Below are positions 3,645 to 48,183 of a stretch of DNA of 64,000 nucleotides, piece after piece; position 1 is the stretch's first letter; each line of letters starts with the position of its first letter. The position numbers and the translations under genes are program-made. The stretch comes from a virus: positions 1 to 64,000 of IMG/VR virus record IMGVR_UViG_3300022074_000006, one strand, 5' to 3'. The notes under the pieces are model-generated. The model saw nothing but the letters and a program-made list of their open reading frames with translations. It did not search any database and was not told the DNA's origin.

Positions 3645-4499
3645 ATGATTATCGACAACAAAAAACCAATTGACTATTACGGTCATCTAGATAAGATTAG
3701 AGATTCGGTTGCTAAAGGAGACTATATAGGTTGGTCCTTTTCTGATTTCATGAGGCCGTTTGTTTATGAGTATCAAAAAATAGAACTAAGAGTAGACGTT
3801 GATAAAAAAAAGTCTTCTGAATACTGGTCACAAAACGCCGAGTCACTAAGTGATGAAGACTTTTTGGAGTTTTTTAACAAGACCGGCCCTGAATACAGCT
3901 CGAGCTTTGAAGAGGGATCGAAAGACTTCCATGACCTAGTAATGAACGCTAGACTGTCACAAGACTTGACGGTTTCCGAATTCCTAGGGAACGTTGGCGA
4001 GAAAACATGTTTAGAAATAGGTTTTGGCGGCGGAAGACTTCTTCAAGAGGCATGCAAAACATTTAAAATTGCAAAAGGATTAGACATTCATGAATATTTC
4101 GAAAGAACTGAAGGTATCCTGACAGAAAAAAATCTAAAAAACTTCGAACTTATAAATTGTAAAAATATGGGCAAGATAAAAACCAGTTCTGTTGACCTGG
4201 TGTATTCTTTGATAGTGATGCAGCATATCGATACAGTAGAAGAAGTCATAAACCACATAGAAAACACAAGAAGAGTTTTGAAAAAAGACGGTTTGGCAGT
4301 TTTGTATTTTGGTCTCAATAATATGTTACCAAGCGTCGGCGCACTTGAAATTTCCGGACACGAAGAGGGCGGTTACAGCATGCTTTTCAATATAGACTTT
4401 ATGTCCAAGGTCTTAGATCAAAAAAAATTAAATCCGATTGCATTAAACGTAACTGAAAATCTACGTCAGTTTTCCATTATAGCAAAGCCTACATTTTGA
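3645..4499 (+). CDS. SAM-dependent methyltransferase, class I
   Basis: This is a second methyltransferase, of 284 residues. It has the canonical motif I, CLEIGFGGGRLLQEA (E124, then GFGGG), at about 122-136. The motif II acidic residue is near GLDIHE. A motif IV-like segment, SLIVMQHID, at about 186-194 is followed by RRVLKKDGLAVLYF, the usual Methyltransf_11/25 ending. The N-terminal 100 residues are unassigned. It starts directly after the stop of the GT2 gene and ends within TGATG, the next start. It is more typical in sequence than the first methyltransferase in this run, so the two probably differ in substrate. Confidence 0.88.
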   Translation: MIIDNKKPIDYYGHLDKIRDSVAKGDYIGWSFSDFMRPFVYEYQKIELRVDVDKKKSSEYWSQNAESLSDEDFLEFFNKTGPEYSSSFEEGSKDFHDLVMNARLSQDLTVSEFLGNVGEKTCLEIGFGGGRLLQEACKTFKIAKGLDIHEYFERTEGILTEKNLKNFELINCKNMGKIKTSSVDLVYSLIVMQHIDTVEEVINHIENTRRVLKKDGLAVLYFGLNNMLPSVGALEISGHEEGGYSMLFNIDFMSKVLDQKKLNPIALNVTENLRQFSIIAKPTF

Positions 4500-5428
4500 T
4501 GAAGATATTTTTCAATAGAGTTCCTAGGAATGAGCCCTATGGAGGAGGAAACCAGTTTCTAATTGGGATTACTTCTCTTTTAAAAATCTCCGGATTTGAA
4601 GTAGTTTACCACTTAGAAAAAGGTGTCGATCTTATTTTCATGATGGACCCGAGGCCCGGAGATATCGGGTATAGCATACAACATATATTCAACTTTAAAA
4701 AACAGTTTCCAGAAACTAAAGTCATCCACAGGGTAAATGAGTGTGACAAGAGAAAGGGGACAAACGAGATAGACGATCTTTTATTGGCCGGAATGAATCT
4801 TTCTGACCGGGTGATCTTTATCAGCGAATGGCTCAAACAGCACTTTAGAGAGAAAGGCTATAAAGAAAATAGTGATGTAATTTACAACGGGTGCAATCTA
4901 GATCATTTCTTTCCTAAGGTTAACAAGAAACCTAGCAAGAACTTAAGACTGGTTACTCACCACTGGTCTGATAACTGGATGAAAGGGTTTGATCTTTATA
5001 ACCGGCTGGATCAATATATAGCAGAAAATCCAAACTCAGGATTAGAATTTACTTACATAGGAAGGTACTTCAAAGACTACACACCTATCTCCACCAAGAT
5101 AGTGAGTCCAACATTTGGAAAAGACTTGGGTGACAAAATAAGACAACATGACGTGTACGTAACAGCCAGTAGATTTGAACCGTGTGGAATGCACCACATA
5201 GAAGGTTCAGCATCTGGCTTGCCGGTATTGTATCACAGAGATGGTGGAGGAATCAATGAGCTTTGTACCAGACACGGAATTGAATTTGATAACTTTGAAG
5301 AATTTCTACAAGCTGTCAATGTGATTAAAGATAAGAAGGAAGAGTATCAGGCAAAAATAGACTACCCTTACCTGTCTTTGGATCGATGTCTATCTGAATA
5401 TCTAAAAGTCATAAAGGAAATGGCATGA
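4499..5428 (+). CDS. GT4 family glycosyltransferase
   Basis: This is a GT-B glycosyltransferase of 309 residues. The N-terminal half opens with a strand and a GGGNQFL loop (about 15-21), as in GT4 enzymes. The C-terminal half has the EX7E nucleotide-sugar motif: E227 in FEPCG and E235 in EGSASGLPVL, followed by a GGG loop. I place the start at ATG 4499, within the TGATG of the preceding stop. A TTG one codon upstream is possible but less likely. The C-terminus overlaps the next gene by ATGA. It is smaller than cellular GT4 enzymes (about 350-400 residues), a common trait of phage versions. Donor unknown. Confidence 0.9.
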   Translation: MKIFFNRVPRNEPYGGGNQFLIGITSLLKISGFEVVYHLEKGVDLIFMMDPRPGDIGYSIQHIFNFKKQFPETKVIHRVNECDKRKGTNEIDDLLLAGMNLSDRVIFISEWLKQHFREKGYKENSDVIYNGCNLDHFFPKVNKKPSKNLRLVTHHWSDNWMKGFDLYNRLDQYIAENPNSGLEFTYIGRYFKDYTPISTKIVSPTFGKDLGDKIRQHDVYVTASRFEPCGMHHIEGSASGLPVLYHRDGGGINELCTRHGIEFDNFEEFLQAVNVIKDKKEEYQAKIDYPYLSLDRCLSEYLKVIKEMA

Positions 5429-6360
5429 AAATACACTTAGAGAATGTAGACCTGAGTGCCAGGTCCGGCCCCAACTCTTTTGCAAAAAGATTGGCAGTAG
5501 AATTAACTTCTAGAGGACACTCTATTGTAGACCTTTATAATCAATCGGATGTTTCTTGTGTGTTTATCCAGAGTAATTCTTCGATACCAAATGATCATCC
5601 AAAGGTCCATCGCTTAGATGGAATATGGTTTAAGCCTGAACAGTTTGTTTCACACAACGTACAGATCAAAAAAGACTACCTCCAAAGCAGTAGAGTAATT
5701 TGGCAGTCTAACTTTGACAAAAATATGACTAATTTTCATTGGGGACCAAGACCCGGAAGTGTGATCAACAATGGAATCTCTATGGAGACTGTAGAGATTA
5801 CGAACAAAGATATTCTGAACATAAGAAAAAGTTTTGATAATGTGTTCGTTTGTTCTGCAAATTGGCACCCACAAAAGAGACTAGAGAAAAACATAGAAGC
5901 ATACAATATCATAAAGCAGAAAATCGACGGAAGCTCTGTTCTTCTAGTTTTAGGATCTCTGCCTTATGTTCAGGCAAACCAAAAAGACGTTCTCTACACG
6001 GGATCGATTACACACGAAATGTGCCTACAGACTTTTAAAGTCTCAGACTGGATGATTCACATGGCATGGTTAGATCACTGTCCCAACACAGTTGTCGAGG
6101 CTCTTTCCCAAGGGTGTCCGGTGATATGCACAGATTCCGGTGGTACACATGAAATAGTGAGAAAGAATGGCATTGTAATTCCTGAAAATATTAGGTATAA
6201 TTTTGAATTGACAGATTACGACAAACCATATGATCTTAATTTAGAAGGTTTGGAAGAAATAGACTGGTCAAAAAATATTAAGGTAGAGTCAAACTACTTA
6301 GACATAAAAAATGTTGCTGATCTTTACTTGAAAGAGTTTAGGCTGGCGTTGGGTGATTAA
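5425..6360 (+). CDS. GT4 family glycosyltransferase
   Basis: This 311-residue GT-B protein starts with a short strand and the loop SGPNSFAKRLA (about 14-24), a frequent GT4 N-terminus. The C-terminal Rossmann domain begins near NWHPQKRLEKNIEA (about 150). The donor-site region reads CPNTVVEALSQGCPVI, near 218-233. The second glutamate of the EX7E motif is present, but the first position is occupied by Asp-His (WLDHCP), so the motif is atypical. The gene overlaps its upstream neighbour by four bases and the next by eight. It is probably active, but the altered motif leaves some doubt. Confidence 0.85.
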   Translation: MKIHLENVDLSARSGPNSFAKRLAVELTSRGHSIVDLYNQSDVSCVFIQSNSSIPNDHPKVHRLDGIWFKPEQFVSHNVQIKKDYLQSSRVIWQSNFDKNMTNFHWGPRPGSVINNGISMETVEITNKDILNIRKSFDNVFVCSANWHPQKRLEKNIEAYNIIKQKIDGSSVLLVLGSLPYVQANQKDVLYTGSITHEMCLQTFKVSDWMIHMAWLDHCPNTVVEALSQGCPVICTDSGGTHEIVRKNGIVIPENIRYNFELTDYDKPYDLNLEGLEEIDWSKNIKVESNYLDIKNVADLYLKEFRLALGD

Positions 6361-7306
6361 ATTGAAAGTTTTTGTCTTAGCACCAAAAGAAAACTGGATA
6401 TGTGATAGGTTTGTCAGCGAATGGAAAGAGAATCATCAAGAATCCATAACTGAAAACCCTCATGAGGCGGACGTTATCTGGCTTTTGGCAGACTGGTGCT
6501 GGAATCATTTGCCTCACACACTCCTTTCTACCAAGAAAGTTTTAGCTTCCGTTCATCACATTGTCCCGGAAAAGTTTGGAATAAATGAGCAGAGAGAATT
6601 CAAAGTAAGAGACAGCCTGATTGATTATTATCATGTTCCTTGTTTGAAGACTAGAGACCAAGTATCTTCTCTCACCAAAAAGCCTATTTTTTGTAATCCA
6701 TTCTGGGTGAACGGAAGTGTCTGGTCTGAAAAGAGAGATCAAAAAAAAGAACTAAGAAAAAAGTACGGAATAAAAGATGATTGCTACTTAATAGGATCTT
6801 TTCAAAGAGACACCGAAGGCCATGACTTAATCTCTCCCAAACTAGAAAAAGGCCCCGATCTTTTTTGCGACGCTGTCATAGAAAGAAGAAACAGCCGCTC
6901 AGACAAAGGAATGACTGAGGTTGAGGTTCTTTTGGCAGGATGGCGACGTCAATATGTGATGAAGAGACTAGATGACGCAAAGATAAATTACCACTATTTC
7001 GAGCTTCCAGAACTAAGTACAATCAATGATTTCTATTCCATCTTAGATCTTTATATTGTAGCTGCTAGATATGAAGGAGGCCCTCAAGCAATATTTGAGT
7101 GTGCAGAAACAAAGACGCCTATCATATCTACAGACGTAGGTGCTGCTTCTATGATTTTAAACAGAAAGTCTATATTTACTCCTGGTGAATCCTTGCTAGC
7201 AAAACCTGACACTGAGTATTGTAAAAACTCTGTTGAGAAATATTTGATGCCACAAGGATTTTCTCCCTTTGATGATTTCATGAAAAAAATTCATGAAAAA
7301 AATTAA
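6353..7306 (+). CDS. GT4-like glycosyltransferase
   Basis: This 317-residue GT-B-type protein has a divergent N-terminal half (ADVIWLLADWCWNHLP near residues 38-53). The C-terminal half carries YEGGPQAIFECAETKTPII with an intact EX7E pair near residues 243-251. The reading frame opens with GTG at 6353, inside the end of the upstream gene; TTG at 6362 is an alternative. The last codons (ATGAAAAAAATTCATGAAAAAAATTAA) contain a short direct duplication, from which the next small ORF starts. No sugar specificity can be read. Confidence 0.82.
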   Translation: MIKLKVFVLAPKENWICDRFVSEWKENHQESITENPHEADVIWLLADWCWNHLPHTLLSTKKVLASVHHIVPEKFGINEQREFKVRDSLIDYYHVPCLKTRDQVSSLTKKPIFCNPFWVNGSVWSEKRDQKKELRKKYGIKDDCYLIGSFQRDTEGHDLISPKLEKGPDLFCDAVIERRNSRSDKGMTEVEVLLAGWRRQYVMKRLDDAKINYHYFELPELSTINDFYSILDLYIVAARYEGGPQAIFECAETKTPIISTDVGAASMILNRKSIFTPGESLLAKPDTEYCKNSVEKYLMPQGFSPFDDFMKKIHEKN

Positions 7307-7574
7307 AGAAAAACTAGTAGAGAAAGTTGAATTATATTTTTCTACAAAAATGGCTAGAAATACAAATTGGCATTCTGCGGCAGCTAGAAGAATTGCAGCA
7401 GAATTAGCAGTTTCTGCAATAGCTGAAGAATACGAAAAAGCAGAAAAAAGAAAGAGAAAAAAACGTGAAAATTTTAGTAACCGGTGTAAAAGGTGTAGTT
7501 GGAACAAAGCTTCGAAACTCTCTGGAAAAAAAGGGTCACGATGTTTTCGGTGTAGACCTGTATCACGCAGATGA
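7293..7574 (+). CDS. small basic protein, overlapping the next gene
   Basis: This 93-residue ORF fills the 158-base space between two certain genes and then runs 110 bases out of frame into the epimerase. Residues 1-58 look protein-like: a helix with an alanine-rich AAARRIAAELAVSAIAEEY segment (about 30-48), followed by a run of Lys and Arg. Beyond residue 58 the sequence is out of frame with a conserved enzyme, rich in Cys and Arg, and probably less constrained. It starts within the 3' end of the upstream gene. I do not recognise a family. The N-terminal part may be real, with the long overlap an unusual ending. Confidence 0.5.
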   Translation: MKKIKEKLVEKVELYFSTKMARNTNWHSAAARRIAAELAVSAIAEEYEKAEKRKRKKRENFSNRCKRCSWNKASKLSGKKGSRCFRCRPVSRR

Positions 7575-8412
7575 AAATTACGGACACGGTCTAGGAAAAC
7601 ACCCGAAAGAAAACTATTTTAGATCAGACATCGCTGAATTTAGACAAATATCAGACGTTGTCGAGCATGTCAAGCCTGATTTTGTCTACAATTGTGCAGC
7701 TGAGTTTGGGAGGTGGAACGGTGAAAACTTCTATGAAAAAGTATGGAAGTCAAACGCTATCGGAATGAAAAACATGATACGCCTTCAAGAAAAGAATGGC
7801 TTTAAGATGGTCCACTGCTCTTCTTCAGAAGTTTACGGTGACTATGAGGGGGTGATGTACGAAGATGTCATGGATGAAGTTGCTATACCTCAAATGAATG
7901 ATTACGCAATTTCTAAGTGGGTAAATGAAATGCAAATTAAAAACTCTCATGAAATGTTTGGTACTGAAACTGTGAGAGTTAGACTTTTCAACACTTACGG
8001 ACCAGGAGAATGGTTTCACCCGTTTAGAAGCGTCAACTGTGTATTTACGTATAAGCTTTTGACCGGACAACCAATAACTGTTTTTAAGGGGCATTCTAGG
8101 ACTAGTACTTACATAGAAGATTGCGTCGAAGCTCTTTCAAACATATCTTCTAATTTTAAAAATCAAGAATCTTACAACATTGCTAGTCAAACTGAACACA
8201 CTATTGAAGAATTAGCTAATTTGATTTTGAAGCATACAGGTGCTGATCCTTCCTTGGTGACTTTCAAACATCACAAAGAAATACTGACTACTACTCATAA
8301 AAAAGTTGATGCTCAAAAAGCTAGAAACGACTTAGGTATGAAAGAGACAGTTTCTCTAGAAGAAGGCGTCAAGAAAACCGTTGAATGGATGAAGAAGCAT
8401 TATGACTTGTGA
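7465..8412 (+). CDS. NAD-dependent epimerase/dehydratase (extended SDR)
   Basis: This 315-residue extended short-chain dehydrogenase starts at GTG 7465. The cofactor motif is TGVKGVVG (6-13). The catalytic triad elements are visible as CSSSEVYG (about 112-119) and DYAISKW (about 146-152, the YxxxK pair). The downstream FNTYGPGE and STYIEDCVEAL segments are typical of nucleotide-sugar epimerases and dehydratases. The family acts on NDP-sugars with bound NAD. The substrate could be a UDP- or dTDP-sugar. It is followed by an overlapping WecB-type epimerase, consistent with a local pathway making an unusual activated sugar. Confidence 0.88.
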   Translation: MKILVTGVKGVVGTKLRNSLEKKGHDVFGVDLYHADENYGHGLGKHPKENYFRSDIAEFRQISDVVEHVKPDFVYNCAAEFGRWNGENFYEKVWKSNAIGMKNMIRLQEKNGFKMVHCSSSEVYGDYEGVMYEDVMDEVAIPQMNDYAISKWVNEMQIKNSHEMFGTETVRVRLFNTYGPGEWFHPFRSVNCVFTYKLLTGQPITVFKGHSRTSTYIEDCVEALSNISSNFKNQESYNIASQTEHTIEELANLILKHTGADPSLVTFKHHKEILTTTHKKVDAQKARNDLGMKETVSLEEGVKKTVEWMKKHYDL

Positions 8413-9457
8413 TGTCCTTCATGTTGTCGGAGCAAGACCAAATTTTGCTAAGATGGGGCCTGTTTTTTCTGAATTGAAAAACCTAAGAACCAAACAGGCA
8501 ATACTTCATAGTGGCCAGCATTATGACAGTAATATGTCTGATAGTTTTTTTAGAGACTTAGAGATTCCTCCTCCTGACATTGTTTTAACCTCATTTGGAT
8601 CTAATTTTAAAGAAGTCATAGAAGATATTGAGAAAAGTATTATCTCACTAGACCCAAAATTGGTTTGTGTGTACGGAGATATCAACACTACACTTTTGGC
8701 TTCTATTGCAACTAAGAAATCCGGCAAGCTTTTAGCTCATGTTGAATCAGGTCTTAGAAGTGGTGATAAAAAGATGCCTGAAGAAGTCAATAGAATTATG
8801 GTTGATGCTATAACTGACATTCATTTCGTTACAGAATCGTCTGGGGTTGAAAATTTAAAAACAGAAGGCAAGTCTGACTCTGTTTTCTTTGTTGGTAATA
8901 CAATGATAGACTCTTTGTCAAAAGAGTTAGAAAAAATAGAACACAAAGATACTTCACCTTACTATGTAGTTACCTTTCACAGACCTTCTAATGTTGACTC
9001 CAAAGAATCTTTACTGAAGGTCCTGGATATTCTATCTGAGCTAAAGGAAGAAACTTTTTGGCCAATACATCCAAGATCATTGAGCGCTCTTAAGAAATTT
9101 AGACTATTAACAAAAGCAAAAAGAATAAAGAGTCTCAAAATAATAGACCCCATGAGCTACAAAGAATTCATCAAACTAGTCAGATTCAGCAATTGCGTGA
9201 TTACAGACTCCGGAGGAATACAAGAAGAGACTACTTTTATGAGAGTTCCATGCTTGACCTACAGAGAGAACACTGAAAGACCTTCAACGGTAGACGTAGG
9301 TACAAATACACTATTTTCTACAAAAAACGAAATGATAAAAATTTTAGAAGACATAAAGAGTGGAGCCTACAAGAAAGGTAAAATACCGCCACTTTGGGAC
9401 GGAAAGTCGGGTCAAAGAATTGCGTTATCAATCAAGAAAAAACTTTTGACAATATAG
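8402..9457 (+). CDS. wecB: UDP-N-acetylglucosamine 2-epimerase (non-hydrolysing, WecB type)
   Basis: The 351-residue protein matches the non-hydrolysing 2-epimerase that interconverts UDP-GlcNAc and UDP-ManNAc in the cytoplasm. Diagnostic segments: VVGARPNFAKM near the N-terminus, HSGQHYD near 36-42, VYGDINTT with D93, HVESGLRS with E115, MPEEVNR with E127/E128, HRPSN with H193 and DSGGIQEE near 273-280. These correspond to the catalytic Asp, Glu, Glu and His of bacterial WecB. Length is slightly below the usual 370 or so. It overlaps the SDR by 11 bases. With the dehydrogenase at 13337 it could lead to UDP-ManNAcA, the classical WecB-WecC route; that link is inference. Confidence 0.92.
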   Translation: MTCDVLHVVGARPNFAKMGPVFSELKNLRTKQAILHSGQHYDSNMSDSFFRDLEIPPPDIVLTSFGSNFKEVIEDIEKSIISLDPKLVCVYGDINTTLLASIATKKSGKLLAHVESGLRSGDKKMPEEVNRIMVDAITDIHFVTESSGVENLKTEGKSDSVFFVGNTMIDSLSKELEKIEHKDTSPYYVVTFHRPSNVDSKESLLKVLDILSELKEETFWPIHPRSLSALKKFRLLTKAKRIKSLKIIDPMSYKEFIKLVRFSNCVITDSGGIQEETTFMRVPCLTYRENTERPSTVDVGTNTLFSTKNEMIKILEDIKSGAYKKGKIPPLWDGKSGQRIALSIKKKLLTI

Positions 9458-9520
9458 CCTAATACAATTCCTGCTAGCGTCTATATTTTTTAGAGGTTTT
9501 AAATATTAAGGTAGGTATCT
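9458..9520 (+). promoter_or_regulatory. intergenic leader, possible promoter
   Basis: This 63-base gap is one of the few breaks in the sugar island. It contains TATATTTTT near 9482-9490 and an AT-rich TTTTAAATATTAA further on, then a weak purine-rich stretch before the GTG at 9521. The first AT-rich box resembles TATATTTAA seen upstream of two structural genes in this window. It may mark a new transcription start. No clear hairpin terminator precedes it. Confidence 0.35.
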
Positions 9521-10531
9521 GTGAAAGTAACTTTTGGCATTGTTAATTGTAATAGACTTCACTATCTAAGGGCGTGTGTAGAATCCATTTTTATTTCAAC
9601 TTCAGATTATGACAATAAAGAAATAATTGTAGTTGACAACGCCAGCATTGAACCGGGAACAGAAGATTACTTAAAAATCCTTGCTTCTCGAGGAGTGAAT
9701 GTAATTCAAACTACCAAAAGAGATCCTATTAACGAGTTCGCTCGGGCACTAAACACTATAGTAAAAGAGTCTACCGGAGACGTCATTTGTCCACTTAGTG
9801 GAGATCTTCAGTTTGTATTGTCCCCCGGGTGGATTAAACCTTTTTTGAAAATAGTTGCTGAAAAAGAAGACTTAGGATCTTTGATGCTTGACTCTCAAAG
9901 AAGAAAGACTATAGCAGGCAACACTCTAGAGAGACCTGTATTCTATGAAGAAATGAAATTTTGGAAGAACACTTCCAGGCCTCCAATAGCTACAAGTGGC
10001 AACTCTTTTTACAGAAGAGAGGTTTTAGAAAAGCTAGGTCCATGGTCAGAAGAAAACAAGAATCATGAAGGAACAGATGATTCAGAGACAAAAATGCTCA
10101 AAAGAGTGATTAGTTACTGTGTTGAAAACAAAGTAGATTGGAGCCAGTATCAGTCTTGTTTTCCTGCAACCGTCATGATAACGACCGACCCTAGAGGAAC
10201 CAATGCAAGAATCAGAGGCGAAAAGGTGTATGGAAAATATGTAGAAGGAAAAGGTGATTCCGGAACATATTACAAGTTTAGATCTATAGAAGAGCTTCAA
10301 GAAAAGTATGGACTTCATGTTCGAGACTTTCCTTTAGAAATAGAGAAAGTTGCAATTGGGGAAGGATTCGGTATATATCTAGACAGAAACGGAGACTGGA
10401 AAAAAAGCCCCATAAGGGTTGAGGACTGTAACCCGGAAGACTGGTCTTACATAAATCCTGAAATGGAAAAAAAAAGACAAGTAAATAATATTCCAGAGGA
10501 CTACTTGAAAGATTGGATGGAAAGTGAGTAA
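9521..10531 (+). CDS. GT2-like glycosyltransferase
   Basis: This 336-residue protein starts at GTG 9521. It has a GT-A family 2 N-terminal domain: FGIVNCNRLHYLRACVESI (about 5-23) and VVDNAS near 40. The expected metal motif is replaced by CPLSGDLQFVL (near 90-100), which keeps one Asp but has lost the canonical DxD. An acceptor-side motif SGNSFYRREVLEKLG follows near 160-174. The C-terminal third is unassigned. The altered DxD could mean different metal use or an inactive binding role. It overlaps the carbamoyltransferase start by eight bases. Confidence 0.82.
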   Translation: MKVTFGIVNCNRLHYLRACVESIFISTSDYDNKEIIVVDNASIEPGTEDYLKILASRGVNVIQTTKRDPINEFARALNTIVKESTGDVICPLSGDLQFVLSPGWIKPFLKIVAEKEDLGSLMLDSQRRKTIAGNTLERPVFYEEMKFWKNTSRPPIATSGNSFYRREVLEKLGPWSEENKNHEGTDDSETKMLKRVISYCVENKVDWSQYQSCFPATVMITTDPRGTNARIRGEKVYGKYVEGKGDSGTYYKFRSIEELQEKYGLHVRDFPLEIEKVAIGEGFGIYLDRNGDWKKSPIRVEDCNPEDWSYINPEMEKKRQVNNIPEDYLKDWMESE

Positions 10532-12191
10532 TAATTTAGTAGGAGGTTTGTGGGCCGGCCATGACTGTGCATACTGCATTTTAGACGAAAAAGGCACGCC
10601 TTTGATTCATGCAGAACTAGAGAGATACAACAGAGAAAAGTCTCCCAATGGAGATGTAGTTGAATTCATGATTCATAGATCAAAAGATCTTTATGATCGG
10701 TGTGGAACCTTTGGCATTCCATATCCAGTCAAAAAAATAAAGTCTTACAAAGAATCTTTTGCTAATTTGGAGAGTCATGTTAAGTCACTAGGTGGAGACA
10801 TACACTTCTTTTCTCACCATTACTGTCACGCTGCTAATGCATTTTATTCTTCCAACTTTGAAGATTCCATAGTTCTGACAATGGACGGGGGAGGATCTGA
10901 AAATGAGGCAGGAGGAGAGACTTGCTGTACAGTCTGGAGAGGTTCCGGAAATCAGCTTTACCCACTTAAGATATTCACACCTTCAGAAGTCAATATCGGC
11001 GGAGTTTGGTCTAGAATTACCAGGTACGTCTTTGGTCTTCAAAATGGGTGGCCTAGAGGAGGTCAGGAAGGAACAGTGATGGCAATGGCAGCACTAGGAG
11101 ATCCTTCAAAGTATTACGATGACTTTCTAAAAATGCTTACAGTTGACAAGATGTCAGCCGGATTTAAACCACCTAATCAACCAAAAGGGGCTAGAATTCC
11201 AGGCAAAGATCCTGTCCATCCATACCTAGACAGATGGTTTCAAATAGCCCAGTCTTCTGATCAAGAGACTTATAATCTAGCCGCAAGTCTTCAGTTGGCC
11301 ACTGAAAGCTTGATTGAGTCAATACTGAAGTTTGCACATCAATCAGCAGGGAGTGAAACCACAAATCTTTGTTTGTCCGGAGGAGTTACACTAAATTCTG
11401 TAGCTATGGGAAAGATAAACAAATGGATGCCTGGAGCTTTTAGTAGCATTTACATTCCTCCTGTTCCTTACGATGCCGGATTAGCGATTGGTGCAGCCCA
11501 AATTGTGACACACGGAATACAAAGAAAACCTCGAGTCAAATGGGACACAAACTTTCCTTCTTATTTAGGGGAGGTGTGGAAGAAAGACTTTGTAAATGAA
11601 TCGATTCAGGCAGCGGTAGAAAAGAATCCACACGTCCAAGTCGAAACAGGAACAGATGAAGAAGTCGTAGACATGCTAGCTGACCAAAAGATAGTTGCTG
11701 TTTTTAATGGAAAGTCAGAGTCTGGTAGAAGAGCTTTGGGTAATAGAAGCATACTGGCTGACCCTAGAAGTTCTAGAATGAAAGATGACATTAATAAGAA
11801 AGTAAAACATCGACAATGGTACAGGCCTTTTGCACCTTCTGTCCTAGAAGAAGACGGGAAAGAATGGTTCGATGATTTTATAGAAAGTCCTTACATGCAG
11901 TTTGTCTTGCCAATCAAAGAGGATAAGAAAGAAAAAGTTCCTGCCATAGTTCATTTTGATGGTTCAGCAAGACTTCAAACGATAAACGAAAACCACAATC
12001 CTTGGTACTATAGATTTCTAAAGACATGGAAGTCTAAAACAGGTGTTCCAATATTGCTCAATACGAGTTTTAATGATAGAGAGCCCATATGTGAAACTCC
12101 CGTTCACGCAATAAATTGTTTTTTAGGGACAGACATTGATTGCCTTTACTTTCCGGAAGTAGGTAAAGTGCTAAAGAAGGATTCAGAATAA
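10524..12191 (+). CDS. carbamoyltransferase, NodU/TobZ family
   Basis: This is a full-length (555 residues) NodU-family O-carbamoyltransferase. In this family an N-terminal Kae1/YrdC-type machinery makes carbamoyl-adenylate from carbamoyl phosphate and ATP and passes the carbamoyl group to a hydroxyl, usually on a sugar. Features: GLWAGHDCAY near the N-terminus, the metal/active-site histidines H98, H99 and H102 in SHHYCHAANAF, MDGGGSEN near 116-123, LCLSGGVTLNSVAMGK near 287-302, and a C-terminal domain with GRRALGNRSILADPR and WYRPFAPSVL. The start is GTG, overlapping the upstream gene. All major motifs look intact, so it is probably active. In this context a carbamoylated sugar is the likely product; the acceptor is unknown. 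Confidence 0.92.
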   Translation: MSNNLVGGLWAGHDCAYCILDEKGTPLIHAELERYNREKSPNGDVVEFMIHRSKDLYDRCGTFGIPYPVKKIKSYKESFANLESHVKSLGGDIHFFSHHYCHAANAFYSSNFEDSIVLTMDGGGSENEAGGETCCTVWRGSGNQLYPLKIFTPSEVNIGGVWSRITRYVFGLQNGWPRGGQEGTVMAMAALGDPSKYYDDFLKMLTVDKMSAGFKPPNQPKGARIPGKDPVHPYLDRWFQIAQSSDQETYNLAASLQLATESLIESILKFAHQSAGSETTNLCLSGGVTLNSVAMGKINKWMPGAFSSIYIPPVPYDAGLAIGAAQIVTHGIQRKPRVKWDTNFPSYLGEVWKKDFVNESIQAAVEKNPHVQVETGTDEEVVDMLADQKIVAVFNGKSESGRRALGNRSILADPRSSRMKDDINKKVKHRQWYRPFAPSVLEEDGKEWFDDFIESPYMQFVLPIKEDKKEKVPAIVHFDGSARLQTINENHNPWYYRFLKTWKSKTGVPILLNTSFNDREPICETPVHAINCFLGTDIDCLYFPEVGKVLKKDSE

Positions 12192-13340
12192 ATGAAAAAA
12201 GTTACGATAAGAGGACCGGTTCTAACTCAGTCTGGGTACGGCGTTCATGCCAGGCAATTTGTAAAGTACGCAATGAGAAAAAAAGATTGGGATTTGTCTT
12301 TTTCTGTCACGCCTTGGGGGATGACCCCCTGGCTCTTAGACACTTCTGATCCTGTTGTAGACTTTGTTACTAAAAGAACAGCACCTCATGACAACGCTGA
12401 CCTAAGTATTCAGATTCAGCTTCCTAACGAATGGAACCCGGGAATTGCGAAAAAAAATATCGGTGTTACAGCCGCCGTAGAGACTGACTTTTGCAATGGT
12501 ATGTGGGTAGATCGATGCAATCAAATGGATGCTGTAATCGTTCCTTCTAGTTTTACAAAGAGTGTGATTGAAAAGTCCGGAACTGTAAAAACAAATCTTG
12601 TGGTTGTAAACGAGGCCTTTCCTGAAGAGTTTGAAGAAGAAGTTAATCCTCTGGATTTAGAATTGGACACAGACTTCAACTTCTTGGTCTATGGACAAGT
12701 CACAGGAACAAATTCTGAAAATGACAGAAAGAATCTTTTCTATACAGTAAAGTGGCTATGTGAAACATTTGAAGGTGACAAAAATGTTGGAATAGTAATA
12801 AAAACAAATTCAGGAAAAAACACAAAGATAGACAGGATGGTAACTCATAGAACCTTGAGTCAACTTATAAAGACTGTTCGAAAGGGAAATTTTCCAAGAA
12901 TTCATCTCTTGCACGGAAATCTAAAGAACAAAGAAGTGGCAGGCCTGTATGTTCACCCTAAAATCAAAGCAATAGTTTCAGCAACTAGAGGAGAAGGTTA
13001 TGGTTTGCCTCTATTAGAGGCAGCTGCGTCAGGTCTCCCGGTAGTTGCCACAAACTGGTCCGGACACCTGGACTTTCTTAAGAAGGGAAGATTTATATCT
13101 CTAGACTACACACTGGAGTCAATCCCTGATGACATGTCAGACAACAACATTTTTATGAAAGGGTCAAAGTGGGCTCAAGTACATGAGTCTGACTTTAAGA
13201 AAAAGCTGAAAAAGCTTAGAGGTAGTCATGACGTTCCTTTGGGATGGGCAAAAGACTTAAGAAAAGTCATACGAAAAGAATTTTCTCAAAAAGCCATAGA
13301 ACAAAAAATTGATGAAGTTGTGGAGAAAATCATAGGATGA
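12192..13340 (+). CDS. GT4 family glycosyltransferase
   Basis: The 382-residue protein is the most complete GT4 enzyme here. The N-terminal GT-B half begins with LTQSGYGVHARQFV (about 11-24), a glycine-rich loop typical of the family. The C-terminal half has the EX7E motif RGEGYGLPLLEAAASGLPVV with E268 and E276. The start follows directly on the carbamoyltransferase stop, and its end overlaps the dehydrogenase by ATGA. It may be the transferase that handles the sugar made by its flanking neighbours, but only position supports this. Confidence 0.9.
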   Translation: MKKVTIRGPVLTQSGYGVHARQFVKYAMRKKDWDLSFSVTPWGMTPWLLDTSDPVVDFVTKRTAPHDNADLSIQIQLPNEWNPGIAKKNIGVTAAVETDFCNGMWVDRCNQMDAVIVPSSFTKSVIEKSGTVKTNLVVVNEAFPEEFEEEVNPLDLELDTDFNFLVYGQVTGTNSENDRKNLFYTVKWLCETFEGDKNVGIVIKTNSGKNTKIDRMVTHRTLSQLIKTVRKGNFPRIHLLHGNLKNKEVAGLYVHPKIKAIVSATRGEGYGLPLLEAAASGLPVVATNWSGHLDFLKKGRFISLDYTLESIPDDMSDNNIFMKGSKWAQVHESDFKKKLKKLRGSHDVPLGWAKDLRKVIRKEFSQKAIEQKIDEVVEKIIG

Positions 13341-14170
13341 AGGTAGGAATTATAGGGCAAGGATTTGTAGGATCTGCTATAAGAGAAGGCCTGAAAGGTT
13401 TTTACGAAGTTTTAACTTACGACACAGACACCAGTAAGTGTAATTCTTCTCATAAAGAAGTATGTACAGAATGTGAAATAATATTCGTCTGTGTGCCAAC
13501 TCCCATGAGAAAATCAGGTGAGTGTGACACTAGAATTTTACAAGGCGCTGTAAATGAAATAAGTGAGCAATGTAAAGTTTCAGGAAAAACTCCTGTTCTA
13601 GTCGTAAAGTCTACGGTTCCTCCCGGAACAACAGATTCTATCTCTAGCAAAACTAGTTTAAAAGTTTGCTTTAGTCCTGAGTTTTTAACAGAAGCTAATT
13701 CTTTTGATGATTTTAAGAATCAGAGCAGGATTATCATTGGAGGCGAAGGAGCAAAAAAAGTCAAACAAATGTTCCGAAAACCTTTTCCCAACATACCGAT
13801 TGTTGTAACAAAGACTCAAACAGCTGAGATGGTAAAATATTACACCAACTGCTTTCTAGCCACAAAGGTTACGTTTGCAAATCAGATGTACGACATATGC
13901 GAAAACTTAGACATTGATTACGACAAAGTAAGTGAATATGCTCTTCTAGATAAAAGAATTGGCAAGAGTCATTTGGCAGTTCCCGGACCTGATGGCGACC
14001 GAGGTTATGGCGGCCACTGTTTTCCTAAAGACGTAGCAGCAATGACTTACTTAGGTAAGAGTAATGATACAAGAGTTAGATTTTTGCAAAGTGTCGAAAG
14101 GGAAAACGAAGCTTACAGAACCGTAGAAGACTGGAAGAAAATGAAGGGAAGAGCAGTCAGCGATGACTAA
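13337..14170 (+). CDS. UDP-sugar 6-dehydrogenase, C-terminally short
   Basis: This is a UDP-glucose/GDP-mannose dehydrogenase family protein. The family oxidises C6 of an NDP-hexose to a uronate with two NAD. The NAD-binding motif GIIGQGFVG is at 4-12. VCVPTP near 51-56, STVPPGTT near 92-99 and the central-domain FSPEFLTEA near 112-120 are typical. The catalytic loop GYGGHCFPKD carries the nucleophile C228. At 277 residues it ends soon after this loop, whereas the family normally has 390-450 residues with a C-terminal UDP-binding Rossmann domain. The next gene overlaps it by eight bases, so the missing domain is not simply out of frame. Activity is therefore uncertain. Confidence 0.88.
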   Translation: MKVGIIGQGFVGSAIREGLKGFYEVLTYDTDTSKCNSSHKEVCTECEIIFVCVPTPMRKSGECDTRILQGAVNEISEQCKVSGKTPVLVVKSTVPPGTTDSISSKTSLKVCFSPEFLTEANSFDDFKNQSRIIIGGEGAKKVKQMFRKPFPNIPIVVTKTQTAEMVKYYTNCFLATKVTFANQMYDICENLDIDYDKVSEYALLDKRIGKSHLAVPGPDGDRGYGGHCFPKDVAAMTYLGKSNDTRVRFLQSVERENEAYRTVEDWKKMKGRAVSDD

Positions 14171-15020
14171 GAAAATACTAGTTACAGGTGGTTTAGGATT
14201 TGTCGGATCTCATCTAGTTGACGAGCTATTAAAAGACAAAAACAATAAGGTTACTGTTATAGACAACTTATGCTCTGAGTCTTCTAGTAAAAACTACATG
14301 AGAGACGAAGCTGATTATATCATTGATGATATCCGAAATCTCTCGAACGTATTTTATAAAAGCTTAGAGTTTGATGTCATTTATCACCTGGCAGCTTTAG
14401 CTAGAATTCAACCTTCTTTTAAAGACCCCATGAAGTACATGTCAATCGATATCATGGGAACTGCAGAAGTTTGTGACCTGGCTAGAAGGTGCAATTCTAG
14501 AATTATTTACGCAGGATCTTCTTCAGCTTTCGGCGGTCCGATGCTTAACCCATATGCTTTTGCAAAATTTACTGGTGAGCAAACATGTGAAATGTTTACA
14601 AAGGTTTTCGGTGTCAAAACTTCAATAGCAAGATTTTTTAACGTGTATGGAAAAAGGCAGCCCACTACCGGCCCCTATGCTACAGTAGTAGGAGTCTTTG
14701 AAGAGCAAAAAAGAAATAATCAGCCCCTAACAGTGACGGGAAATGGAGAGCAGAGAAGAGACTTTACACATGTAGAAGATATAGTTCTAGGTCTGATTGC
14801 GATGGAAAGGGACGAAGGTGACTCTCATGTATATCAACTAGGGACCGGAAAAAACTACTCCATAAATGAACTAGCTAAAATGTTTTCATCCAACATAGAA
14901 TACATACCCGAAAGGCCTGGTGAAGCTTGGACGACATTGGCTGACATAAAAGACGCAAATGAAATTCTTGGGTGGAGCCCTTCTGTTTCTTTAGAAGAAT
15001 ACATCAAAGACCTGAATTGA
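14163..15020 (+). CDS. NAD-dependent nucleotide-sugar epimerase/dehydratase
   Basis: This 285-residue extended SDR has cofactor motif TGGLGFVGSH (8-17), AGSSSAFGG (catalytic Ser region, about 118-126), PYAFAKF with the YxxxK pair (about 131-137), and RDFTHVEDIVLG near 200-211. The last is a strong signature of GalE/RmlB-like enzymes. It is shorter than cellular GalE (about 340), mainly in the middle. It follows the shortened dehydrogenase with an eight-base overlap. A 4-epimerase or C4 dehydratase on the dehydrogenase product is plausible but not provable from sequence. Confidence 0.87.
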   Translation: MTKKILVTGGLGFVGSHLVDELLKDKNNKVTVIDNLCSESSSKNYMRDEADYIIDDIRNLSNVFYKSLEFDVIYHLAALARIQPSFKDPMKYMSIDIMGTAEVCDLARRCNSRIIYAGSSSAFGGPMLNPYAFAKFTGEQTCEMFTKVFGVKTSIARFFNVYGKRQPTTGPYATVVGVFEEQKRNNQPLTVTGNGEQRRDFTHVEDIVLGLIAMERDEGDSHVYQLGTGKNYSINELAKMFSSNIEYIPERPGEAWTTLADIKDANEILGWSPSVSLEEYIKDLN

Positions 15021-15063
15021 AAATTTTTCTTAAAAAAAGTAATGATCTGTTGTATTATTAAAC
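15021..15063 (+). promoter_or_regulatory. short intergenic gap
   Basis: This 43-base AT-rich gap separates the last SDR gene from the nuclease gene. It contains GTATTATTAAAC immediately before the ATG at 15064 and an imperfect T-run/A-run inverted repeat near 15024-15040. No purine-rich ribosome binding site is visible before the ATG, which is unusual for this window. It may hold a promoter, with the nuclease message leaderless or weakly translated. Confidence 0.3.
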
Positions 15064-15894
15064 ATGAAAGTTAATTTTCCTACCGGTAAACCTCACATAT
15101 CATTTTCTGAATGGAAGTCCTGGAAAGAGTGCCCATTTAGGCATAAGCTGGCATACATTGACAAAATAGATACTTTTCAACCCTCACCCTTTTTAGACTT
15201 TGGAACAGCAGTTCATGAAGGGGCTGAGTCTTTCTTAAATGAGGGATCAGTCCCCAGAGAGAAACTAATAAATGAAATTAGAGAAGCCTGGCTGAAAAAT
15301 GGTTTCGACAAAAAAGAATGGGTAGAGAAACAGCCAGGGTGGTACAAGTACCACCCAGTTGAAGAGTGGGTTGACTGGGCAAACAACATGTGGGATGAGA
15401 TTCCCGATTATCTTGACAAAGAATTTCCAGGATGGAAGCCGGTAATAGCTGAAGAACAGCTCTATGAAGAAATTCCTGGAGTTGATGTCAAATTTAAAGG
15501 TTTCATAGACGTAATAATAAAACAGCCCAGAAAAAACGGAACATGGAAGTATTGGATCTTAGACTGGAAGACTGCTTCACCTCGAGGGTGGTCTCGAGAT
15601 AAAAAGCAAGATTTCAATATGCAGGCTCAGCTGATCCTATACAAACACTTCTGGGGGACTAAACATAATATTAACATGAGAGACATAGGATGCGGTTTTG
15701 TTTTGCTCAAGAGGGGCGGAAAGAAAGGAAACATATGTTCTCTAGTGAATGTTAGTGCTGGACCAAAGATGATTGAAAAGGCTCAAAAAACTACGAGGTC
15801 CATGATAAAGTCTGTAAAGAAAGGTATGTTTTTGAAGAATAGAAATTCATGTACTTTTTGTGACTTTAAAAATACAGAATATTGCCCGAGTTGA
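15064..15894 (+). CDS. PD-(D/E)XK nuclease with Cas4/AddB-like Fe-S cysteines
   Basis: This 276-residue protein belongs to the RecB-like PDDEXK_1 nucleases. Motifs in order: GTAVHEGAE with H51 and E55, FIDV with D149, ILDWKT with D167 and K169 (the D-x-K catalytic pair), and QAQLILY with Q187 and Y193. One cysteine before the catalytic core (C23) and three after it (C263, C266, C274) have the spacing seen in Cas4 and AddB, where four cysteines hold a 4Fe-4S cluster. Such enzymes are metal-dependent 5' or 3' exonucleases on single-stranded ends. It probably works in phage recombination or repair. No cas genes or arrays are nearby, so a CRISPR role is not supported. Confidence 0.88.
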   Translation: MKVNFPTGKPHISFSEWKSWKECPFRHKLAYIDKIDTFQPSPFLDFGTAVHEGAESFLNEGSVPREKLINEIREAWLKNGFDKKEWVEKQPGWYKYHPVEEWVDWANNMWDEIPDYLDKEFPGWKPVIAEEQLYEEIPGVDVKFKGFIDVIIKQPRKNGTWKYWILDWKTASPRGWSRDKKQDFNMQAQLILYKHFWGTKHNINMRDIGCGFVLLKRGGKKGNICSLVNVSAGPKMIEKAQKTTRSMIKSVKKGMFLKNRNSCTFCDFKNTEYCPS

Positions 15895-15896
15895 GA

Positions 15897-17162
15897 ATGA
15901 CAGAAAAGAAAAAAATATTAATGTTGTCAGACCACGCCCTGAGCACATCAGGTGTAGGATGTCAAAGTCGTTTTTTAGTGAACGGTCTTTTAAAAAAGAA
16001 TGAGTGGACTGTTAGACAGTTAGGTGCAGCCATATCACATGAAAACTATGATGTTGTAAAAGTCACAGATGATTTCTATATCAAGCCCGTAGATGGTTTT
16101 GGAAATCCAGAAATGATAAGACAAATCCTTGTTACCGAGAAGCCTGATCTTATTTTTATTTTTACGGATCCTAGGTTTTTTACTTGGCTTTGGGAGATGG
16201 AAGACGAAATACATCAAGTTTGTCCAATTGCCTACTGGCATGTGTGGGACAACTACCCAAGCCCTGAATACAATAAAGTATTGTACGACTCTACAGATCT
16301 CGTCAATTGTCACAGCTATTTGACATACAATATTGTCAAAGAAATGTTTCCGGATAAAGCAGGATTCATTCCTCACGCATTACCTGATGAAGTTTTTTAT
16401 GAAATGTCAGAATCAGAAAAAGTATCAGCTAGAAATGGAATGATAGGCCCGGGATATGAAGATGCTTTTATATCACTTTGGGTTAATAGAAATGCGAAGA
16501 GAAAACGGCCCGGAGACATGATTTGGGCATGGAGTAAATTTATCAAGAAAGTCAAGGAAAGAGAAGGTTCTAATTTTAAGAATGATGCTTTTCTTTTTAT
16601 GCACACGGATCCAAACGACCCAGAAGGACCAAACCTTTACGAAAACATAAAGCTGATGGACGTGGTTGATTCTGTAATACTTTCACCAGACCGAGTTGAC
16701 TTTGCAAAAATGAACGAAATTCACAACGGCGTAGACTGTTGTATACAAATTAGCTATGCTGAAGGTTTTGGTTTGTCAACTTTAGAATCAATGCAGTGTG
16801 CTAATCCCATTATTGCTGTAAAGACTGGAGGTCTGACTCGACAGGTTGTTGACCACCGCGACGGAACAGAAAACGGAATCGGGCTAGACGTAGAATTCCA
16901 GTCAATCGTAGGTTCACAACATGTTCCTTATATATTTGAAGACTATGTGTCAACCGACACTATTGCTGATGCTTTATTGACAATGTATGACATGTCGAAA
17001 GAAGAAAGAAATTCTCTGGGAAGAAAGGCCAAAAAATATGTCCGTGAAGAATTTGGTTATCAAAAAACTATAGACTTGTGGCATGACTCTTTGAAAAATC
17101 TAGTCGAAGACTGGAAAGAAAACAAGGAAAAAAGAAAGCAATGGACCCTACAGTCACTATAG
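15897..17162 (+). CDS. GT4 family glycosyltransferase
   Basis: This GT-B glycosyltransferase has 421 residues from ATG 15897. The track-style start TTG 15882 lies inside the nuclease gene and is less likely. The N-terminal loop is STSGVGCQSRFLVN, and WVNRNAKRKRPGDM near 193-206 is a donor-side helix start. The EX7E motif is AEGFGLSTLESMQCANPI with E289 and E297, followed by KTGGLTRQVVD. It closes the sugar island and is separated from the other transferases by the nuclease gene. The end overlaps the following small membrane gene by 22 bases. The donor sugar is unknown. Confidence 0.88.
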   Translation: MTEKKKILMLSDHALSTSGVGCQSRFLVNGLLKKNEWTVRQLGAAISHENYDVVKVTDDFYIKPVDGFGNPEMIRQILVTEKPDLIFIFTDPRFFTWLWEMEDEIHQVCPIAYWHVWDNYPSPEYNKVLYDSTDLVNCHSYLTYNIVKEMFPDKAGFIPHALPDEVFYEMSESEKVSARNGMIGPGYEDAFISLWVNRNAKRKRPGDMIWAWSKFIKKVKEREGSNFKNDAFLFMHTDPNDPEGPNLYENIKLMDVVDSVILSPDRVDFAKMNEIHNGVDCCIQISYAEGFGLSTLESMQCANPIIAVKTGGLTRQVVDHRDGTENGIGLDVEFQSIVGSQHVPYIFEDYVSTDTIADALLTMYDMSKEERNSLGRKAKKYVREEFGYQKTIDLWHDSLKNLVEDWKENKEKRKQWTLQSL

Positions 17163-45911: not shown

Positions 45912-47087
45912 CTAGTCGATGTAGTCGAAATATCCTCTAATAGTATAACCATTTTGAAAAGCCCATACGTCTAAGATTTCAAGATCACTCATAGGAATAC
46001 CCATTCCTCCCATTTCCATTACATTTTCGTTACCTTTTCCTGCAATAAGAATGGTGGCATTAGTAAACTCAGAAAGGGAAGTAGTGATTGCTTCTCTTCT
46101 GTCAAGCTTTATTGAAACTCTGTCTATCTTTTCAATACCAGTCAGTATGTCTTTTATAATTTCTCTAGGGTTTTCTTCTCTTGGGTTGTCGTTTGTGAGT
46201 ACAACGTAGCTGCTTAGCCTTGACGCCACTTCTCCCATTAGAGGTCTTTTTTCTTTTGACTTGTTTCCGCCGCACCCAAATATTGTTACTATTTTTCTAA
46301 TCCCTTTGTTTTCATTTAGGAAATTAAGCTGATTCTCTAAGCTTGTGTGCGTGTGAGCGTAGTCTATCACTACTAGAGAGTCTGTCTCAACTATGTGATA
46401 AACATTAGATCTACCTTTGACACCCGGAAAAGACTTGATAGACGCTATGATGTCTTCACATGCGATGCCGTACATTTGACAGCATAGAAAAGCAGCAGCG
46501 CAGTTTTGAGCATTGAATTCTCCGTACTGAACAGTTGAGATAGTGTGTGTGTCACCATTCAAGTCTTTGAGATCAAAAGTCATAAGACCCGAAGTGTGCA
46601 CAAGATTAGATAGAATGACATTAGAGCCTTCTGAGAAACCATATGAGACAACTTTGTCCTCATGTCCAATAATAATGTCATCAAAAAATTCCGTGTCCTT
46701 AGAGACAAAAACTCTGCCTCCTGGAGCAGTGAAATGAAAGATATTTCTTTTCGCTTCTAGATATTCACCCGAAGTTTCATAGAGTTCGGAATGCTCTGTT
46801 TCTTCAAAACCTGTAAAGACACCAATATCTATCGGATTGTCTCTGTAACAGTCTAAAGTTAGGACGAAAGAAGTAGCTTCTGATATGATGACGTCTGACT
46901 CATTTTTTGCTGGGTGGTCAAAGTAAAGCTCAGCACTTCTAGAAGGGTTGTCAGGAAATCCATCAACATAAGGACCGTCTATTCCATATTCTCCAAAAAC
47001 TGACTTTCCGTTAGACATGAGAACATGCTGAACGATTCTAGTGACTGTCGTTTTTCCTTTTGTGCCTGTTATTGCTATATGATTCAT
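45912..47087 (-). CDS. MurE-like Mur ligase lacking the N-terminal UDP-binding domain
   Basis: This 391-residue protein is the only minus-strand gene. It matches the ATPase and C-terminal domains of MurE, the ATP-dependent ligase that adds the third amino acid to UDP-MurNAc-L-Ala-D-Glu. Motifs: P-loop GTKGKTT (8-14); YLEAKRNIF with K113, the position of the carbamylated lysine; DYAH (242-245); GCGGNKSKEKRP (271-282); DNPR (300-303); DRREAI (329-334); AGKGNE (349-354). DNPR with the later Gly/Glu is the signature of meso-diaminopimelate-adding MurE. Cellular MurE (about 490 residues) has about 100 more N-terminal residues that hold the UDP-sugar. Here the protein begins almost at the P-loop. 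GGAG sits six bases before the ATG. Catalysis looks possible; the acceptor must differ or be bound otherwise. Confidence 0.9.
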   Translation of the reverse strand: MNHIAITGTKGKTTVTRIVQHVLMSNGKSVFGEYGIDGPYVDGFPDNPSRSAELYFDHPAKNESDVIISEATSFVLTLDCYRDNPIDIGVFTGFEETEHSELYETSGEYLEAKRNIFHFTAPGGRVFVSKDTEFFDDIIIGHEDKVVSYGFSEGSNVILSNLVHTSGLMTFDLKDLNGDTHTISTVQYGEFNAQNCAAAFLCCQMYGIACEDIIASIKSFPGVKGRSNVYHIVETDSLVVIDYAHTHTSLENQLNFLNENKGIRKIVTIFGCGGNKSKEKRPLMGEVASRLSSYVVLTNDNPREENPREIIKDILTGIEKIDRVSIKLDRREAITTSLSEFTNATILIAGKGNENVMEMGGMGIPMSDLEILDVWAFQNGYTIRGYFDYID

Positions 47088-47108
47088 TTTTAACTCCGAG
47101 TAAGAAAA

Positions 47109-47137
47109 AGTATACCATTGAACGGGCTACTGTTTAA
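47109..47137 (-). promoter_or_regulatory. sigma70-like promoter for the MurE-like gene
   Basis: Read on the minus strand, TTAAAC (plus 47132-47137) and TATACT (plus 47109-47114) are separated by exactly 17 bases, the best spacing for a bacterial sigma70 promoter. Transcription would start near 47102, leaving a leader of about 15 bases that includes the GGAG at 47094-47097. This suggests expression by unmodified host polymerase, unlike the late tail genes around it. Confidence 0.6.
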
Positions 47138-47214: not shown

Positions 47215-48183
47215 GTGGCTGGTATATTAGATCCTAAAACTAGAGTCATGGACTTTATCATGACAGAGCTGGGTAGAGAGCAAGCTGCTCAAGGAGAAAT
47301 GAGAATTAAGTACGCAACGTTTACGGACCGCGCGGCATTCTATTCTTCAGGCTCAATCAAAGGAGTTGCAGATCCTGCAGAAAATAGACTTTACTTCGAG
47401 GCTGCATCTTCGCCTCATGACTCTATTGTAATAGAATCTGACTTTGATGGAAATATAAAACCATTTGATGCCGATGAATTTAAAATAGATGGATCTGATG
47501 TAATAAAACAAACAGCTCTTCCAGGTCAAGATATTGTTTTAAAGACAGGCCAGATATTGCCGATCGCTTCTAAGATATTGAATAGTATAACTTCTTCAAT
47601 AGAAAGCACTCAGTATATTAGAACCACCGATCTTTTCATAGAAGATAGAGACTTTGTTGCAGAACCTAAAACTCTTTTCTATTCTTACAATGACGATCCT
47701 GACTTGCCATCATCACCATACTCAGAAAGCGCGAAGAGTGTTGTTCTGGTAGATCAATTAACCAGTCTTTTTCAAGACAAGAAACTTGCTCACATTCCAA
47801 GCTTTCATTTTTTACCACCTAGGAATATGCCGAGCCCTGAGAATAATGACGGAAATTCTCTGGGTGAATATGCAAAATTTAGAGATGAATATGACGACAA
47901 GCAAAATCCAAGAAAAGCTTACGATGATTCTCTAAATTCTGGCTTTGAAAAAAGAAGAATCTATTTTAACGAAAGAACTCCTGACAACAATCTAATAGTT
48001 CAGCCGTTTCATTTTAGTGAAGACGGAGTTGACAAGCTTTCTGTAGTCGATGGAGGCCAATACGTTAAAGAGACGACAGGAGAAAGACGTCATGTCTTTT
48101 ACATAGGTCGACTTTTCGCTGATACGAAAAAAACTACCACCTACATTCACCTGTTTACTTTAGTCTTTAGAGAGAGAAATTAA
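47215..48183 (+). CDS. virion structural protein, paralogue of the protein at 58203
   Basis: The 322-residue protein starts at GTG 47215, supported by GAGGAG. The N-terminus (VMDFIMTELGREQAAQGEMR, then IKYATFTD) aligns with that of the 236-residue protein at 58203: both follow D-x-x-(I/L)-T-(E/D)-x-G-R-x-Q-x-A-x-(G/R)-x-(F/M). After about residue 60 they diverge. No catalytic motif is visible. The C-terminus FLADTKK-like end and the order among tail genes point to a baseplate or tail-tube-associated part. I do not recognise a named family. Confidence 0.7.
   Translation: MAGILDPKTRVMDFIMTELGREQAAQGEMRIKYATFTDRAAFYSSGSIKGVADPAENRLYFEAASSPHDSIVIESDFDGNIKPFDADEFKIDGSDVIKQTALPGQDIVLKTGQILPIASKILNSITSSIESTQYIRTTDLFIEDRDFVAEPKTLFYSYNDDPDLPSSPYSESAKSVVLVDQLTSLFQDKKLAHIPSFHFLPPRNMPSPENNDGNSLGEYAKFRDEYDDKQNPRKAYDDSLNSGFEKRRIYFNERTPDNNLIVQPFHFSEDGVDKLSVVDGGQYVKETTGERRHVFYIGRLFADTKKTTTYIHLFTLVFRERN

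Follow-up and report, generated by a model that had tools for sequence, protein, structure and literature searches.

The minus-strand gene at 45912-47087 of the analysed DNA (the window: 64,000 nucleotides, part of a record of 133,292 bases from a large uncultured phage) encodes a two-domain MurE-like ligase that lacks the UDP-binding domain of MurE. We consider it, with a probability of roughly 0.55, to be an active enzyme derived from MurE that joins diaminopimelate, or a close analogue, to a new acceptor, perhaps modifying the envelope or a receptor. Judged by sequence, the ligase chemistry is well supported and an active ligase with a changed acceptor is likely; its envelope- or receptor-modifying role, proposed by analogy, is tentative. 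The initial annotation had already proposed a trimmed ligase with a different acceptor, and this gains support from two features found in both known homologues: the UDP domain is absent and the acceptor residues of the central domain are replaced, with the donor and ATP sites kept. The domain content, the residue changes, the fold, the second phage homologue and the insertion sites are computed results, from which we infer the activity of the ligase, its donor, acceptor, timing and role.

To our knowledge, phages are known to cut peptidoglycan or to block its synthesis, whereas they are not known to encode a wall-type ligase for amino acids themselves. An active protein would be the first Mur ligase of a phage to have a substrate of its own. 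It would also provide a natural MurE scaffold of two domains in which the acceptor has changed, and it would point to a new phage route for altering the host surface or precursor pools. Should diaminopimelate indeed go to an acceptor other than peptidoglycan, the reaction would be a type of amino-acid ligation as yet undescribed in phages.

Results

Gene extent and domain content

The open reading frame starts with ATG, encodes 391 residues and has no internal stops. Pfam assigns Mur_ligase_M to residues 6-202 (7.6e-24) and Mur_ligase_C to residues 233-352 (2.5e-23), both far over the curated cut-offs, and returned no other domain for this protein. As first described, the protein begins at the P-loop (TGTKGKTT, residues 7-14, preceded by six residues) and carries the probable carbamylated lysine K113 and the DNPR motif at 300-303. 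Table 1 lists the features.

The UDP-binding domain is missing, as had been claimed. Given the whole open frame comprises 404 codons, only about 13 residues of upstream extension are possible, so the domain is truly absent rather than missed through a wrong start. PF01225, the Mur N-domain, matches 11 of 14 control genomes but neither the window's contig nor that of the related phage G034 described below. On neither phage contig does a different gene provide the UDP domain. This absence is not, however, a peculiarity in itself, as two-domain Mur ligases without the domain are already known: MurT, CapB/PgsB, FolC and the ligase half of cyanophycin synthetase (CphA).

The base composition of the gene (GC 0.389, GC3 0.332) and its codon use are within the range of its neighbours. 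It had been described as standing alone on the minus strand, and it is in fact the sole sizeable minus-strand gene of the entire contig, with two further candidates of 113 and 93 aa being doubtful.

Table 1. Features of the ligase gene and its surroundings in the window.
Feature	Position	Strand	Basis or remark
Glycan-synthesis cluster, left 17 kb	194..17162	+	Context for the ligase
Tail-fibre gene, 1877 aa	40278..45911	+	PHROG tail fiber, 2.6e-23; convergent with the ligase
Two-domain MurE-like ligase, 391 aa	45912..47087	-	Mur_ligase_M and Mur_ligase_C, without N-terminal UDP domain
GKGNE, residues 350-354	46026..46040	-	Glu354 = E. coli Glu469 (Glu-468 in PMC3829189), diaminopimelate side-chain contact
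DNPR motif, residues 300-303, diaminopimelate recognition	46179..46190	-	Alignment; function from PMC3829189
Lys113, probable carbamylated lysine (E. coli 225)	46749..46751	-	MurE alignment
His99, metal-ligand position (E. coli 211)	46791..46793	-	MurE alignment
Residues 70-80, EATSFVLTLDC, replacing MurE E-V-S-S-H-x-L-x-Q-x-R (acceptor contacts Ser185, Gln191, Arg193)	46848..46880	-	MurE alignment
Residues 36-55, acceptor-binding Thr-Thr region of MurE, shortened or replaced	46923..46982	-	MurE alignment
P-loop TGTKGKTT, residues 7-14	47046..47069	-	Sequence and MurE alignment
Candidate own promoter TAAACA-16-TATACT, extended -10 TG, and Shine-Dalgarno GGAG	47094..47136	-	Consensus match
Conserved structural-type gene, MAGILDPK...	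47215..48183	+	Divergent neighbour of the ligase; marks the empty site in relatives

A second phage member

Scanning IMG/VR contigs with the C-terminal motifs retrieved one homologue, of 388 aa, at L121:4221-5384 on IMGVR_UViG_3300032278_004048 (G034, 50,592 bases). It is 40% identical to the window's ligase end to end (E 3e-86), with the same start point and the same truncation. Further scans of the viral collection using other parts of the family gave no third member, and the ligase was found in none of 39 terminase-related records, many of which are fragments. The initial annotation knew of no described phage system of this kind; in agreement, our search of open-access papers found no description of a phage MurE-like ligase, and a library of predicted viral structures held no full-length match.

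Other matches were rejected as phage relatives or short forms. Those in INPHARED records labelled as Listeria, Acinetobacter, Salmonella and Enterococcus phages are cellular murE: two annotated ones lie inside intact ftsI-murE-murF operons, and the unannotated ones that were opened encode full-length MurE. Such records (e.g., CAKLQH020000003.1 and AFYI01000001.1, with host ftsI-murE-murF-mraY operons) are mislabelled or chimeric bacterial sequence within a phage collection. Viral contig L012 encodes a full-length MurE followed by a frame that appears MraY-like by eye, and L013 carries a fragment at the contig edge. Of the plasmid matches, the only one opened proved to be a MurE of full length, carried by a plasmid of Streptomyces. 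Among 249 Pseudomonadota genomes, 57 gave a strong match, and in all 57 the open frame is at least 482 aa, as expected for full-length MurE.

Family scores, predicted fold and phylogeny

The best curated models for the ligase are the MurE equivalogs TIGR01085 and NF001126, with scores under their cut-offs (240.1 of 373, and 228.7 of 257.3); on the same models the G034 homologue scores 253.9 and 241. Scores on the models of other ligases without the UDP domain are also under the cut-offs: 78.7 bits of 850 for cyanophycin synthetase, where only the ligase half is matched, 17 of 222.7 for the PgsB/CapB poly-gamma-glutamate synthase, and 35.2 of 162.65 for FolC. The MurT combination of its C-terminal domain with a GatD partner gene is lacking, the neighbours being a fibre gene and a structural-type gene. 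By the sequence features tested, the ligase is not MurT, CphA, PgsB or FolC. A PHROGs search yielded one weak family of unknown function and nothing else, and PADLOC gave no match. Among solved structures, MurE enzymes are the closest by sequence.

An AlphaFold2 model, built on a four-sequence alignment, is a two-domain Mur ligase with a mean pLDDT of 79.4 and a pTM of 0.76; the P-loop region is well modelled, and residues 352-365, adjoining the donor motif, are weak. Foldseek ranks MurE structures first (E 1.4e-28), followed by cyanophycin synthetase and MurC. TM-scores of about 0.5 with large rmsd probably reflect, in this model, a changed angle between the two domains.

In the tree, the phage pair comes out as a long-branched clade (100/100), which groups with MurE at 99/98 against MurC, MurF and CphA. 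The initial annotation had asked whether the protein nests in MurE or forms a phage clade. The distinct clade is recovered; as for nesting, the AU test of placement inside versus beside MurE gave p 0.57, and on sequence the ligase is a descendant of MurE or its sister. A CphA-like hairpin (DGxYxxG) near the P-loop is suggestive only, and a search with the N-terminal part of the ligase finds MurE and CphA about equally, both weakly.

These results bear on whether the gene is a decaying fragment of a host murE or an assembly artefact. Its rarity, with a single other member in five differently aimed scans of the viral collection, speaks for such an origin. Against this, the frame is open without stops and the motifs are intact, the base composition is phage-like with phage genes on either side, and an independent full-length homologue exists on another phage contig. 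This reading is largely refuted, and we regard it as very improbable. The initial annotation had named two signs of a remnant, a fold without the ATP site and homologues with broken motifs or a decaying frame. Given the predicted fold is that of a Mur ligase, and the G034 homologue retains intact motifs in an open frame, the ligase is not a remnant.

Residues kept and lost relative to MurE

The two phage proteins were aligned with 29 MurEs, with MurF and MurD as outgroups (E. coli numbering, including the first Met). Most MurE rows were chosen by a pattern including the P-loop, DNP and AGKG motifs, so that the conservation of these motifs across the MurE set partly reflects how the rows were selected; the acceptor positions lost from the phage proteins played no part in this choice.

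Both phage proteins keep the ATP-site and catalytic positions Gly116, Gly119, Lys120, Thr/Ser121, Glu183, His211, Lys225, Arg342, Asp357 and His360, and hence the whole set expected of a MurE at this site (P-loop, Glu183, His211, carbamylated Lys225, Arg342, Asp357, His360); the P-loop of the G034 homologue reads GKST instead of GKTT. Also kept in both are Arg395, Asp414, Asn415, Pro416, Arg417, Gly465, Gly467 and Glu469. The MurE diaminopimelate site (DNPR, Gly465, Glu469, Arg390) is therefore present save for Arg390, a diaminopimelate contact, which is Lys in both proteins (Lys276 in the window's ligase). His468, the His of GKGHE, is Asn in both (Asn353 in the window's ligase). The Asn, Arg and first Asp of DNPR, together with Glu-468, have described roles in diaminopimelate recognition (PMC3829189). 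We infer diaminopimelate as the donor from this motif, with one donor contact (Arg390) being Lys.

The acceptor side presents a different picture. Thr158, Thr159, Ser185 and Arg193 are identical in 29 of 29 MurEs and changed in both phage proteins, and the usual Gln191 of MurE is likewise lost in both. From the annotation of E. coli MurE, we take the first four to be contacts of UDP-MurNAc-dipeptide. The counterpart of Thr158/Thr159 is a gap in the window's ligase and D and A in the G034 homologue; those of Ser185/Arg193 are T/C and T/T, respectively. Neither phage protein has the MurE contacts to UDP-MurNAc-dipeptide, and the N-terminal domain that binds UDP is lacking.

By the tested sequence features (no UDP domain, lost acceptor residues, scores under the cut-offs) the ligase is not MurE, yet it may work like MurE all the same. 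It would then add diaminopimelate to UDP-MurNAc-dipeptide, to the same peptide on lipid I/II, or to free recycled L-Ala-D-Glu, and so top up or unbalance host wall synthesis. MurE is the nearest family by sequence, tree and fold, and the donor motif is kept. Moreover, MurT, likewise without a UDP domain, is reported to stand in for MurE in vitro (PMC6113224), and loss of the domain alone therefore leaves the normal acceptor possible. The loss from both phage proteins of the four positions invariant in the 29 MurEs argues against this reaction, which we consider unlikely.

The loss of the substrate domain would also suit a decoy for which catalysis is unimportant: bound to diaminopimelate, ATP or partners of Mur ligases, it would inhibit synthesis of the host wall. 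A MurE-like protein of plants, PAP11, is a subunit of the plastid RNA polymerase (PDB entries). However, the P-loop, the metal ligand, the carbamylated-lysine position and the donor residues are kept in two proteins just 40% identical, which fits selection for catalysis and makes a decoy improbable.

Placement, empty sites and promoter

The stop codon of the fibre gene abuts that of the ligase, with 0 bases between them, and this convergent junction has no unusually stable fold. In G034, the ligase converges on another fibre gene (L121:5427-8591) across a gap of 39 bases, and on its other side lies the gene that opens the G034 glycan cluster. The genomic junction thus differs between the two phages, with the ligase in both cases at a fibre gene's 3' end on the opposite strand. 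Eleven related phages have no ligase at the window's site (fibre, then the MAGILD gene), and five have none at the G034 site (fibre, then glycosyltransferase); these empty sites in relatives mark the gene as an accessory insertion. In its C-terminal part, the fibre of the window is similar to the one at the second, G034-type site in two relatives (G002 and G030). The recurrent placement against a fibre end, seen in two cases, is a lead, not a proof: with only two members known, it could be due to chance.

Plausible promoter and ribosome-binding sequences of its own precede the ligase in both phages. Promoter-like sites in the ligase region are no more numerous than in shuffles, so the candidate in Table 1 is to be read as a consensus match only.

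The convergence of ligase and fibre gene in both phages would be expected if the ligase modified a protein by joining an amino acid to one of its carboxylates, the simplest candidate being the tail fibre next to it. Nevertheless, the two fibres have no detectable similarity, their C-termini are unlike (Peptidase_S74 occurs in that of G034 only), and the ligase lies on the opposite strand with its own promoter-like sequence. We know of no Mur ligase that acts on proteins, and hold such a modification to be quite unlikely.

Phage relatives, glycan cluster and other observations

The nearest isolated relatives of the phage by terminase are Microcystis phage Mel-JY01 and Flavobacterium phage immuto, at about 40% identity, with many closer relatives among uncultured IMG/VR contigs. 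The glycan cluster of the window comprises glycosyltransferases, epimerases, a UDP-GlcNAc 2-epimerase, a carbamoyltransferase, a member of the UDP-sugar dehydrogenase family, methyltransferases and one exonuclease-type gene. A role of the ligase within this cluster, with uronic acids supplied by the dehydrogenase-like gene, was considered and dropped as main evidence. No such dehydrogenase-like gene was seen in the glycan cluster of G034, and the link is weak because the cluster also occurs in related phages in which no ligase was detected.

The dehydrogenase-like gene (window 13337-14170; UDP-glucose/GDP-mannose type) encodes only 277 aa, with partial NAD-binding and central domains and no match to the C-terminal domain; it is another shortened sugar-nucleotide enzyme in the same phage as the ligase. 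The carbamoyltransferase (10524-12191) is of NodU/CmcH type and has both domains.

Elsewhere, structural-type proteins at 47215-48183 and 58203-58913 have similar starts, MAGILDPKTRVMDFIMTELGREQ and MGFLDHSTNNIILDAVLTDAGRRQ, and may be paralogues; related phages conserve the first, and no PHROG matches either of them. Two very large proteins in succession (1197 and 1061 aa; L004:6321-13150, positions 87320-94149 of the window's own genome) have ends that resemble phage tail sheath by eye, suggesting a duplicated sheath gene. In G034, about 20 copies of the N-terminal peptide MKITKRQLRRIIREE occur within 8 kb (L125:2804-11135), heading a tandem array of small, otherwise unlike proteins, with extra copies within longer frames. 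By analogy with T4 internal head proteins, this looks like a targeting peptide or propeptide shared by many cargo proteins. The pattern was not found in the window's genome.

Discussion

In the mechanism we propose, the ATP and donor chemistry would be that of MurE and the acceptor would be changed. Its own promoter would drive expression of the ligase separately from the late virion genes. The enzyme would join an amino acid that carries a charge to an envelope precursor of the host, either soluble or lipid-linked (a glycan or a peptide), thereby altering the host surface that the neighbouring fibre recognises. A broader version is doubtful: a phage-specific ligase family that puts diaminopimelate onto a non-peptidoglycan acceptor (a surface glycan or peptide that is lipid-linked) and accompanies tail-fibre genes as a module for modifying receptors and excluding superinfection.

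Comparison with known systems

MurE is the best match of the ligase in sequence and structure, and shares with it the P-loop, the metal His, the carbamylated Lys, the ATP-site Arg/Asp/His, and the DNPR and GKGxE donor motif. The phage ligase differs from MurE in having no UDP N-domain, in the loss of Thr158, Thr159, Ser185 and Arg193, in its sub-cut-off scores and in its separate, long-branch clade.

The ligase half of CphA also has no UDP domain, and there is some likeness near the P-loop (the DGxYxxG hairpin). It joins a basic amino acid to a side-chain carboxylate. In contrast with CphA, the phage ligase has no ATP-grasp half, scores 78 bits against a cut-off of 850, and is placed with MurE in the tree (99/98); the CphA compared here has no DNPR motif.

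MurT, the ligase of GatD/MurT in lipid II amidation, likewise combines the middle domain of Mur ligases with the C-terminal one and has no UDP domain, but it works with the amidotransferase GatD and, in a subset, has a zinc ribbon, whereas the phage ligase has no MurT-specific domain match and no GatD-like neighbour. MurT offers the precedent that loss of the domain goes with an acceptor that is not UDP-linked, namely lipid II (PMC6113224). In phage T5, the receptor-blocking gene llp adjoins the receptor-binding gene oad (PMC4728585). It is this adjacency, together with the MurT precedent, that leads us to favour a ligase acting on an envelope precursor. The likeness to T5 is by analogy only, that of an accessory gene adjoining a receptor-binding gene: Llp is not an enzyme but a receptor-binding lipoprotein, and the phage ligase is likened to it by gene position alone.
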